Part shown: positions 27,717-30,077 of the stretch, piece after piece
Layout: every line of letters starts with the position of its first letter
Position numbering within the stretch: the first letter of the stretch is position 1
Source of the DNA: Pseudomonas sp. PDM18
Lineage (GTDB): Bacteria; Pseudomonadota; Gammaproteobacteria; Pseudomonadales; Pseudomonadaceae
Reading direction: 5' to 3'
DNA length: 64,000 nt
Assembly: GCF_014852585.1 (NCBI RefSeq)
Contig: NZ_JACVBX010000009.1
Coordinates: 62,001 to 126,000, forward strand
Notes under the pieces: model-generated
The model's input: the letters and a program-made list of their open reading frames with translations, nothing else
What the model was told of the DNA's origin: nothing
Database searches by the model: none
Made by a program: the position numbers and the translations under genes

Positions 27717-28312
27717 CGGCCATCCTCCATAGCACCACCCAGGCCAAGATGACGACGGATGCGCGCCAGCAGGCCGATGGGCGCAGTGGTTTGCTGCGCA
27801 GGTGCAACAGGCATGGCCTCGGTGTGCTGAAGCAGCTCCCGGGCGCCCATCAGGCGAACGAAGCTCTCCGCCACCTGGCGCGACACGCCCGAGCGCTCGC
27901 ACAACTCATCCAGGCTCATGGCCCGCGCGCAGAGCAGCGTGGCCAGGCGCACATAACGATGATCTCCCTTGAGCAGGGAGGCCGCCGGCCAATGCTTCAG
28001 GCGCAACGCTCCGCCGGGAGTCTCCACCGGCCGGTGGCCAATGGCGCGAGCGGCTCGCTCCAGGCAGTCGAAGACTTCACTGGCGCGTAACGGCCAGTGC
28101 ACCCAGAAGGGTTCACCCTCCGCGATGCGCAACTGCACCCGTGGCTCGCCTTCCTCACCCTCCACCAGCAGGTCGGCCGGACCGTCGACATAGGCCCAGT
28201 TGGCCAGCGTGCGGCCGCTGAGCAGCCCGACGATGGACTTGAACACCACCTGATCCCGCAACGACATCCGGGCGAACCCGTAGGTATATTGAACCTGATA
28301 CGGCTGATTCAT
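27713..28312 (-). CDS. unknown protein with C-terminal winged-helix-like region, 199 aa
   Basis: First gene of the GTPase/Roadblock operon. The N-terminal half (residues 1-100) is mixed alpha/beta with no family I recognise. The segment about 120-165 (LLKGDHRYVRLATLLCARAM, then SLDELCERSGVSRQVAESFV) looks like a winged helix-turn-helix. The C-terminus ends in a basic RIRRHLGLG helix. In actinobacterial conservons the equivalent slot is filled by a DUF742 winged-helix protein, so this may be a functional analogue. The start MNQPYQVQ at 28312 has GGGAG upstream. A TTG eight codons earlier is less likely. Its leader holds the c-di-GMP riboswitch. Confidence 0.75.
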   Translation of the reverse strand: MNQPYQVQYTYGFARMSLRDQVVFKSIVGLLSGRTLANWAYVDGPADLLVEGEEGEPRVQLRIAEGEPFWVHWPLRASEVFDCLERAARAIGHRPVETPGGALRLKHWPAASLLKGDHRYVRLATLLCARAMSLDELCERSGVSRQVAESFVRLMGARELLQHTEAMPVAPAQQTTAPIGLLARIRRHLGLGGAMEDGR

Positions 28313-28341
28313 CGGCGCGCTCCCTTTGGCCAACAAACACC

Positions 28342-28361
28342 ATCAACCTGCACGGGTTGAT
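28342..28361 (-). promoter_or_regulatory. hairpin in the riboswitch expression platform
   Basis: A perfect 7-bp inverted repeat (28342-28348 with 28355-28361) lies between the aptamer and the first start codon. On the minus-strand RNA it is followed by GGUGUUUGUU. Just upstream in the RNA is GCCUCCUG, complementary to part of the ribosome-binding site GGGAG. It could form either a weak terminator or a Shine-Dalgarno sequester. Confidence 0.4.
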
Positions 28362-28431
28362 CAGGAGGCTCACCGGGACGTTGGAAGATGCCGAGCGCAA
28401 GCTCGCAGAAGGCGCGGACGAACATCCGGCC

Positions 28432-28520
28432 TGCTTGGCAACCCCGCGGTCATGGCCCTTCCGGGCTGTAGATCGGTGGCTTTGCGTCCCTGGCTTTCGC
28501 ACAGGTTTGCCCTGGTCAAT
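28432..28520 (-). ncRNA. cyclic-di-GMP-I riboswitch (GEMM-I)
   Basis: Read on the minus strand, this leader carries every signature of the class I c-di-GMP aptamer in order. GGGCAAA is at 28512-28506. A P2 hairpin CCTG...CAGG is capped by a GAAA tetraloop. GACGCAAAGCC follows at 28488-28478. The P3 arm contains GCCC-GGAA-GGGC. The closing GGGGTTGCC is at 28445-28437. The order and spacing match the V. cholerae Vc2 type as I remember it. It lies about 125-210 bases before the first gene of the wHTH/GTPase/Roadblock operon on the same strand, which is its only possible target. Whether c-di-GMP turns the operon on or off cannot be read with certainty. Confidence 0.9.
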
Positions 28521-28540
28521 TGAATCTCAGCGTAGTACGC

Positions 28541-28568
28541 CGATTTCGTTCGCCAAGGCGAAAAATCG
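28541..28568. promoter_or_regulatory. palindrome upstream of the riboswitch
   Basis: TTCGCC-AA-GGCGAA (28549-28562) is a perfect 6-bp inverted repeat. It is extended on each side by CGATTT and AAATCG with a 2-base offset, giving 12 paired positions. It lies in the gap between the riboswitch operon and the divergent MATE gene, where promoters are expected, and could be an operator. Confidence 0.4.
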
Positions 28569-28642
28569 TGATACACCTCACACAAATATCGGAAATATCG
28601 CCGGAACAACTTCGCAATATTCGTAGGCATATTCCGTTCTAA

Positions 28643-28665: not shown

Positions 28666-28751
28666 CGGCTAGGATTTCCTACAGCGGAGTCCCACCGGCA
28701 CGGGCCCGCCGGATGTCCAGAACAGGCCGGAGCTCACTGCCCAGAGACGCC

Positions 28752-30077
28752 ATGCTAGAGCGCCAGCGGTTCCAGAATATTCTCAGCCTGGGCTTGCCGA
28801 TCATCGGCGGGATGCTCAGTCAGAGCCTGCTTAACCTGGTGGATGCGGCCATGGTCGGCCACCTCGGGGAAAAGTCCCTCGCCGGGGTCGGTATCGGCAG
28901 CTACGCCAACTTCGTCGCCATCTCGCTGGTGATGGGCCTGGGCGCAGGCGTGCAGGCACTGGTGGCGCGCCGGCGGGGTGAAGGCCGCAACGCCGAGCTC
29001 GCCGCTCCGTTGAACTGCGGGCTGCTGGTGGCGCTGGGCCTATCGCTGCCGATAACGCTGATCTGCCTGTTGTTCGCCGAGCCAATCGTCCGCGCGCTGT
29101 CCAACGATCCCGAAGTGCTCGCGGTTGGTATCCCGTACTTCGAATGGCGTGCCTTGTCGGTGCTTGCCGTCGGCCTCAATTTCTCATTCCGCGGCTACTG
29201 GAACGGCACTCGCCGCTCGGGCATGTACATGCGCACCCTGGTGGTGATGCACCTGGCTAACGCGACTATCAGCTACAGCCTGATCCATGGCCTGTTCGGC
29301 CTGCCACGGATGGGCGCGGTGGGCAGCGGCCTGGGCACCACGCTGGCGCTGTACCTCGGCTCGCTGATATACACCTGGATCACCTGGCGCGACGCCCGAG
29401 CCCAGGGCTTTCACCCGCACCCACCAAGCGAAAGGGACATCCGCACTCTGCTGCGCCTGTCGCTGCCAAACTCGTTGCAGCAGTTCTTCTTCGCCGCGGG
29501 CATCACCCTGCTGTTCTGGATCATCGCCCAGGTCGGCACTCGCGAGTTGGCGGTGGCCCACGTGCTGATCAACCTCGCGCTATTCCTGATCCTGCCTGGC
29601 GTCGGCCTGGGGATGGCGGCGACCACGCTGGTCAGCCAGAGCATGGGCGAGCGCGACTTCGACAGCGCGCACCGCTGGGGCTGGGACGTGGTGAAGGTGG
29701 CGGCCTGCGGCCTGGCGCTGCTGGGCGCCCCGTTCTGGATTTTCCCCGAAACCATCCTGCGGCTGTTTGTAAGCGACCACGCGCTGATCGAACTGGGCCG
29801 CGTGCCACTGATGCTGACCGGCATGGGCATGGTGATCGATGCCACCGCGCTGGTGCTGACCCAGGCGCTGCTGGGCGCGGGCGCCGTGCGCACGGTGATG
29901 GCGGTCAGCCTGGGTAATCAATGGCTGTTCTTCCTGCCGCTGGCCTACCTGGTCGGCCCGGTGCTGGGCGGCGGGCTGCTGGCGATCTGGAGCATGCAGA
30001 TACTGCAGCGCGGGCTGGCCTCGGCGATCTTCGCGGTGATGTGGCAGAAACGCCAGTGGACGCAGATCGAACTCTAG
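28752..30077 (+). CDS. MATE family efflux transporter, 441 aa
   Basis: Twelve-helix multidrug and toxin extrusion transporter of the NorM/DinF type, usually Na+ or H+ coupled. The twofold pattern is clear: GLPIIGGMLSQSLLNLVDAA in the first half and LSLPNSLQQFFFAAGITLLF in the second. VDAAMVGHLG matches the conserved family motif. The start at 28752 (MLERQRF) is chosen for homology to family N-termini. An in-frame ATG at 28713 also exists, and neither has a strong Shine-Dalgarno. It is divergent from the riboswitch operon. A DUF2970 gene follows at 49 bases. The substrate is unknown. Confidence 0.87.
   Translation: MLERQRFQNILSLGLPIIGGMLSQSLLNLVDAAMVGHLGEKSLAGVGIGSYANFVAISLVMGLGAGVQALVARRRGEGRNAELAAPLNCGLLVALGLSLPITLICLLFAEPIVRALSNDPEVLAVGIPYFEWRALSVLAVGLNFSFRGYWNGTRRSGMYMRTLVVMHLANATISYSLIHGLFGLPRMGAVGSGLGTTLALYLGSLIYTWITWRDARAQGFHPHPPSERDIRTLLRLSLPNSLQQFFFAAGITLLFWIIAQVGTRELAVAHVLINLALFLILPGVGLGMAATTLVSQSMGERDFDSAHRWGWDVVKVAACGLALLGAPFWIFPETILRLFVSDHALIELGRVPLMLTGMGMVIDATALVLTQALLGAGAVRTVMAVSLGNQWLFFLPLAYLVGPVLGGGLLAIWSMQILQRGLASAIFAVMWQKRQWTQIEL

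Follow-up and report, generated by a model that had tools for sequence, protein, structure and literature searches.

A class I c-di-GMP riboswitch probably controls an MglA-type G-protein operon in Pseudomonas

Group 3 MglA systems, defined by Wuichet and Sogaard-Andersen in 2014, are conserved in beta- and gamma-proteobacteria (PMC4316618). Their gene neighbourhood comprises a receiver-like and winged-helix protein, the small GTPase MglA and one or two MglB proteins. We found no report in the open-licence literature of the signal that governs them. Class I cyclic di-GMP (c-di-GMP-I or GEMM-I) riboswitches are represented by Vc1 and Vc2 of Vibrio cholerae and Cd1 of C. difficile. In a stretch of 64,000 nucleotides (nt) from Pseudomonas sp. 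PDM18 (contig NZ_JACVBX010000009.1; the window in what follows) elements of both kinds stand together: a class I c-di-GMP riboswitch aptamer lies in the leader of an operon that matches the Group 3 neighbourhood, and probably sets the expression of this G-protein module.

The entire window was scanned with cmscan against 4227 Rfam families. The sole match above its gathering score was RF01051 (c-di-GMP-I) on the minus strand, with 76.5 bits against a cut-off of 35, an E-value of 2.9e-13 and the full length of the model aligned (positions 1-87 of 87). The preliminary description of this locus, made from the letters alone, had placed a class I c-di-GMP riboswitch at 28432..28520 of this strand and had named an Infernal search with RF01051 as the check. 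The class stands, and both proposed ends lie at most 2 bases from the match (Table 1). The landmarks on which that proposal was built, GGGCAAA, a GAAA-capped P2, GACGCAAAGCC, a GCCC-GGAA-GGGC arm and GGGGTTGCC, all fall within the RF01051 alignment in this order. The aptamer is located 5′ of the operon on the same strand, 121 nt before the first gene, and a scan of the organism's own genome found no second RF01051 element. A scan of this genome for class II c-di-GMP riboswitches produced no match, nor any for its control, and is uninformative on absence.

Covariation was assessed in 11 operon-linked aptamers over 25 pairs, three of which form a P1 helix added by eye. Standard pairs fill 94.9% of the 274 pair cells, nine of the 25 pairs show changes on both sides, and none of 500 shuffles was as good; when the structure was slid by 1-3 columns, just 1-3 both-side-changed pairs were left. 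The conserved P2 and P3 helices are thus backed by covariation. The probability that a GC-rich sequence merely happens to score here is practically nil: the E-value comes from a whole-library scan, the element is kept across lineages with covariation, and the Rfam scan, the covariation and the linkage within the genus, described next, already refute such an explanation.

Among 25 genomes of the genus, RF01051 is present in 12, and the same 12 have the GTPase of the operon at 86-97% identity (100% in the own genome). The other 13 have no aptamer; one of them (G001) has a GTPase relative at 38% and 12 have none. The closest named GTPase loci are those of Pseudomonas nitroreducens 381H and Pseudomonas sp. 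21 (97% each). Of 398 genomes sampled from the family, 24 contain RF01051 and 29 have a GTPase match with an E-value no higher than 1e-10. In all 14 genomes whose GTPase is at least 66% identical, the aptamer precedes the winged-helix gene, ∼0.8 kb upstream of the GTPase, while RF01051 occurs somewhere in 10 of the remaining 384 (Fisher p 9e-20 for the aptamer-GTPase association, a value inflated by shared ancestry). Rfam matched nothing at 16 family loci whose GTPase relatives are 38-55% identical, with four further places outside this set. The cassette is intact despite a changed upstream gene, as judged by eye: a MATE transporter gene precedes it in the window and L062, and other genes do so in L067, L090 and L091. 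L067 has almost the same aptamer sequence as the L001-type leaders, whereas its leader and upstream DNA are mostly unlike theirs; the L091-type aptamer is more diverged.

Two observations concern relatives of the two parts. In the same genus, locus L025 (1112-2942) encodes a 122-aa winged-helix-like protein, a GTPase (38%), a Roadblock protein and, by eye, a protoglobin-like protein; Rfam found no riboswitch at this shorter module. At four loci of other Pseudomonadaceae (L039, L041, L042 and L043, among the output listed) GEMM-I elements stand near long repeat-like proteins that look by eye like adhesins. Because other GEMM-I elements adjoin such adhesin-looking proteins, the GTPase operon looks like an unusual GEMM-I target in the family.

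Downstream of the aptamer the minus strand encodes, just as the preliminary description had it, a winged-helix-type protein, a small GTPase and two Roadblock proteins, in this order; the next gene is on the opposite strand. The GTPase has the motifs G1 GTMGAGKTT, G3 GTPGQ, a degenerate G4 and a DVR G5, and its profile matches Ras/Rab GTPases of the PDB. The GTPGQ motif is present in all 14 GTPases of alignment A7, as is a TT pair in G2, with threonine replacing the intrinsic arginine finger. The G4 region of the window protein reads GVGRL, without the usual [NT]KxD, and it has DVR instead of DAR as its G5; deviations among the relatives are NVT in L099, L104 and L112 and an NK-type G4 in L124 and L126. 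GTPGQ, the missing G2 arginine finger, the degenerate G4 and a DxR-like G5 are shared with Group 3 systems, as are the set of a winged-helix protein, an MglA GTPase and two MglB proteins and the occurrence in beta/gamma-proteobacteria. By sequence the module thus fits the Group 3 MglA system (PMC4316618), and hence is not itself new.

The Roadblock identities hold with a qualification, as the two window proteins are sub-cut-off and unmatched, respectively, in Pfam. Roadblock 1 matches Robl_LC7 weakly (16.2 bits, below the cut-off of 23), and is identified through its relatives, since each of the 15 sequences in alignment A6 has a Robl_LC7 match at E 0.01. Its profile matches Roadblock structures (best E 1.7e-10) and contains an invariant Asp-Gly pair, D39-G40; the assignment is by sequence profile only. 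Roadblock 2, which together with one other protein shows the highest conservation within the module, has no Robl_LC7 match in its window member; its profile reached a Roadblock structure at E 0.059, and a profile-profile comparison of Roadblocks 1 and 2 gave no alignment (probability 0.8%). Because the profile comparisons did not settle its identity, we rely on the predicted structure, which has the Roadblock fold (alpha-beta-beta-alpha-beta-beta-beta-alpha).

The winged-helix-type protein consists of an alpha/beta N-terminal domain, a winged helix at about residues 96-165 and a basic amphipathic C-terminal tail. Its AlphaFold2 model has a mean pLDDT (predicted local distance difference test) of 81.8 and a pTM (predicted template modelling score) of 0.52, a value that leaves the domain arrangement uncertain, and a Foldseek search with it gave no match at E 0.001. 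We regard this protein as a candidate regulator, GEF-like (GEF, guanine nucleotide exchange factor) or transcriptional. A tail of the LL-x2-IR-x2-LG type (window 27740-27775, codons 180-191) is present in 32 of 32 aligned relatives, which are otherwise 15-89% identical to the window protein; the expression was composed after inspecting the alignment. The conserved tail possibly serves membrane or GTPase binding.

The window aptamer has a G at model position 11, which we take, from alignment and not from a structure, to be the equivalent of Vc2 G20. Every one of the 12 nitroreducens-type aptamers has this base, as do L067 and L126; an A is found in L090 and L091 and also in the family-sample loci L045 and L028. 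The operon-linked aptamers of this A type are located at L090 3134-3219 and L091 3133-3219. The G11 of Cd1 has been equated with Vc2 G20, a position described as a selectivity factor and not a hard filter (PMC9262584). In a Geobacter GEMM-Ib riboswitch, the single change A20G switches the ligand from cyclic GMP-AMP (cGAMP) to c-di-GMP (PMC6456294). L090 and L091 are like these Geobacter cGAMP riboswitches in having the A, while the window aptamer, with its G, differs from them and from the GEMM-Ib type; its presumed ligand is c-di-GMP. It is very unlikely that the element senses 3′,3′-cGAMP, or both dinucleotides, and not c-di-GMP alone: the A of L090, L091, L045 and L028 and the Geobacter precedent speak for such a ligand, and against it stands the G shared by the 12 nitroreducens-type aptamers, the window included, L067 and L126. 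Still, the aptamers of L090 and L091 may, by sequence, prefer cGAMP or be promiscuous, and control by c-di-GMP may not hold across all carriers because the selectivity base differs in these two loci.

Under the proposed mechanism, transcription would start just upstream of the aptamer, possibly aided by a CRP/Vfr-cAMP site. The aptamer would fold during the progress of RNA polymerase, bind c-di-GMP and alter ribosome access to the first gene. Control is most likely translational or Rho-dependent, since no convincing intrinsic terminator was found in the leader. The GTPase ATG overlaps the stop of the winged-helix gene by 4 nt, and this overlap would couple the two genes. The alpha/beta and winged-helix protein may load or steer the GTPase, and the two MglB-like Roadblock proteins may act as GTPase-activating protein or scaffold.

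The first-gene ATG is preceded by AAAGGGAGCGCGCCG, and a Shine-Dalgarno-like AAAGGGAG is located close upstream of it. Across the 12 nitroreducens-type genomes most of the leader is kept, with the greatest divergence in L002 and L009. A terminator-like hairpin is at chance level (one found versus 1.2 expected in shuffles), and is doubtful because the L002 leader does not form it and the L009 leader forms a weaker one. In duplex folding, a downstream segment pairs with the 3′ strand of the aptamer at −24.3 kcal/mol in 9 of 12 leaders. We rejected both hairpin and duplex as evidence for an expression platform, as the hairpin occurs at chance level and shuffled sequences often pair as well as the duplex. 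As to the direction of control, we lean slightly to ON, as a guess; the folding trends at the Shine-Dalgarno and AUG regions, given below, are opposed, and thus the calculations give no direction.

Upstream of the aptamer, and between the operon and a divergent MATE transporter gene (28713-30077), stands a CRP/Vfr-like palindrome, TGTGA-N6-TCAC. Of 12 operon-bearing genomes, 11 have it without a mismatch and L003 has one mismatch, the middle bases varying; the palindrome starts 61 bp upstream of the aptamer in 11 of 12 genomes, the window included, and 59 bp upstream in L009. The pattern has a single match in the window versus 0.29 expected, and 21 of 100 window shuffles contained at least one. 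The case for a CRP site rests on conservation, because genome-wide enrichment is slight and shuffles often hold a match. The own genome encodes a CRP/Vfr orthologue (366 bits, cut-off 266). The candidate −10 element, which we take to resemble RpoS-type −10 elements, sets a putative transcription start ∼53 bp downstream of the palindrome centre, presumably not a classical CRP distance. No sigma-70-type promoter was found at the candidate −10 region, and the palindrome could instead serve the MATE gene.

A contig search yielded 66 loci that encode a GTPase relative. A covariance model, R1, built from 18 aptamers, found an aptamer in ten of them (L061-L067, L090, L091 and L126; E 3e-17 or better), and Rfam, run on 18 of the 66, agrees with R1. 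With the window and Marinobacter proteins as tblastn queries (E 0.001), all four proteins were detected at the ten aptamer-bearing loci and at 39 of the 56 others, mostly from Comamonadaceae and other Burkholderiales; at the remaining aptamer-less loci the winged-helix protein or one Roadblock had no match. In an order sample of 390 genomes RF01051 was present in 51 at E 0.001 or better, four of these from the genus of the window. No operon protein was detected (tblastn, E 0.01) in 66 neighbourhoods of the other carriers (26 with 1.5-kb flanks and 40 with mostly 4-kb flanks; two places, one in G462 and one in G727, were left out). Roadblock 2 had a match in 40 of the 390 genomes. On 30 Roadblock 2 loci of the order R1 reached a best E of 0.5, the 1.5-kb flanks being able to reveal the Marinobacter gene order only; four of the 30 belong to the window genus and have the aptamer outside the flanks.

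The Marinobacter gene order is that of L126 from Marinobacter lipolyticus. Here an aptamer of 81.7 bits stands 257 nt upstream of the Roadblock 2 gene, after which come the genes for a longer protein, the GTPase and Roadblock 1; identity to the window proteins is 51% for Roadblock 2 and 34% for Roadblock 1. Because gene order and aptamer position differ from the window, the sequence suggests a second, separate gain of the riboswitch. The same order, with Roadblock 2 first, was observed at L124 (2493-4959), from an Ectothiorhodospiraceae metagenome-assembled genome, where no aptamer match was found. A wider scenario would run as follows: on at least two independent occasions cyclic-dinucleotide riboswitches were placed before Group 3 MglA modules (before the winged-helix gene in Pseudomonas and before Roadblock 2 in Marinobacter), the Pseudomonas operon is also under cAMP-Vfr control and thus a two-messenger coincidence device for a surface polarity or pilus G-protein switch, and one lineage is shifting towards cGAMP. 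Taken jointly, these propositions are speculative and somewhat unlikely all to be true.

As for output, the module would influence how the cell surface behaves, with type IV pili or polarity as the likeliest targets by analogy with MglA of Myxococcus. In M. xanthus, type IV pili are stimulated by MglA (PMC7519303), and an orphan mglB mutant of Snodgrassella, a Group 3 carrier, showed altered soft-agar spreading (PMC11112851). A less probable reading is that the output is transcription, with the winged-helix protein as a DNA-binding regulator gated by the GTPase and the riboswitch controlling a transcription factor operon. Such an output was proposed for Group 3 systems (PMC4316618), and each of four helix-turn-helix-type Pfam families has a match in one or two among the 32 relatives of the winged-helix protein. 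This alternative concerns output only and can be true together with riboswitch control of the module.

Several findings weigh against our interpretation or parts of it. No aptamer match at E 0.1 was obtained with R1 at 56 of the 66 GTPase loci; since 39 of these encode all four proteins, the riboswitch appears as an add-on to a widespread module. The Marinobacter case is one species: of 124 genomes of that genus, ten have a Roadblock 2 match, and the M. lipolyticus locus alone among these has the aptamer (1.5-kb flanks). BLAST shows no significant similarity between its longer protein and the window winged-helix protein (E 0.046); in an alignment the two share mainly a WP motif and the tail. 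The palindrome pattern occurs ten times in the 6.4-Mb genome (two occurrences overlapping) versus seven for the reversed control pattern. The type IV pilus output is drawn by analogy only. In folding calculations, forcing the aptamer costs 10-20 kcal/mol relative to the free fold; it lowers mean Shine-Dalgarno accessibility in 11 of 12 leaders and raises that of the AUG region in 10 of 12. The best alternative pairing anywhere in the leader was compared with 300 dinucleotide shuffles for each of 8 of 15 Pseudomonas leaders, and shuffles were equal or better in 81 (L001), 194 (L002), 75 (L004), 280 (L009), 43 (L012), 114 (L067), 45 (L091) and 8 (L090) cases, below 5% in L090 alone. Finally, the leader 3′ of the aptamer shows no conservation from one lineage to another. 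Together with the missing convincing terminator and an alternative pairing not clearly better than shuffles, this last point would suit a real aptamer that is a relic or weakly regulatory, inherited with the operon in front of a leader without a working expression platform. We consider such a relic unlikely, as the aptamer is kept in all 12 genus genomes that have the operon, compensatory changes are seen across the wider aptamer set, and the L067 aptamer, unlike its surroundings, is almost identical in sequence to those of L001-type loci.

Table 1. Features of the riboswitch-operon locus (window positions)
Feature	Position	Strand	Basis or remark
CRP/Vfr-like palindrome TGTGA-N6-TCAC	28568..28582		Between operon and divergent MATE gene
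Candidate −10 element CTACGCT	28529..28535	-	CGTACTACGCT invariant in 12/12 genomes
c-di-GMP-I (GEMM-I) riboswitch aptamer	28434..28521	-	RF01051 full length; covariation; G at model position 11
Leader, aptamer to start codon, 121 nt	28313..28433	-	Sequence; expression platform presumed here
Weak terminator-like hairpin	28342..28361	-	Leader scan; 7 pairs, 3 G-C, then GGTGTTTGTT
Winged-helix-type protein, 199 aa	27713..28312	-	AlphaFold2 model, fold comparison, alignment A4 (32 members)
MglA-type small GTPase, 176 aa	27186..27716	-	Motifs; PDB profile matches
Roadblock/LC7 protein 1 (MglB-like), 136 aa	26743..27153	-	Robl_LC7 in relatives; structure-profile matches
Divergent Roadblock protein 2, 119 aa	26312..26671	-	Predicted fold

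The sole GEMM-I element found in the genome points at the module and so gives it a testable input, the c-di-GMP level, and a handle on its function. If the proposed control is real, expression of the module should differ between high- and low-c-di-GMP strains, and a Ras-like GTPase would be linked in Pseudomonas to c-di-GMP and perhaps to cAMP surface-sensing circuits. The arrangement suggests that c-di-GMP would set the amount per cell of a little-studied GTPase switch. The preliminary description had also held a riboswitch driving a small G-protein module to be undescribed. In titles and abstract openings of the open-licence literature, with subscription papers outside this scope, we found no report of riboswitch control of an MglA/Roadblock module; the claim thus applies to the control and not to the module, which is known (PMC4316618).

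Among related systems, the actinobacterial conservons (AGPS; CvnA-D) likewise encode in a single operon a small GTPase, a Roadblock protein and a third protein, and the CvnC-type protein is a likely GEF (PMC13343842). The window operon differs in phylum and in having no CvnA-type histidine kinase among its four genes, the next gene being on the opposite strand; the available part of PMC13343842 mentions no riboswitch. The resemblance to the eukaryotic Rag GTPase-Ragulator-GATOR1 is in fold only, and is a lead, not kinship, because an RNA polymerase III winged helix scores level. With Vc1, Vc2 and Cd1 the window element shares the whole aptamer, the conserved core, the P2 GAAA tetraloop and GACGCAAAGCC, and with known GEMM-I riboswitches further the c-di-GMP-type G and the same-strand position 5′ of an operon; it differs from them in its target, an MglA-type G-protein module, and in an expression platform without recognisable form. 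From the Group 3 systems, for which RNA control is not mentioned in the available part of PMC4316618, the window operon differs by the riboswitch in front of it. Both parts are of known kinds; the new point is their combination, found in two gene orders.
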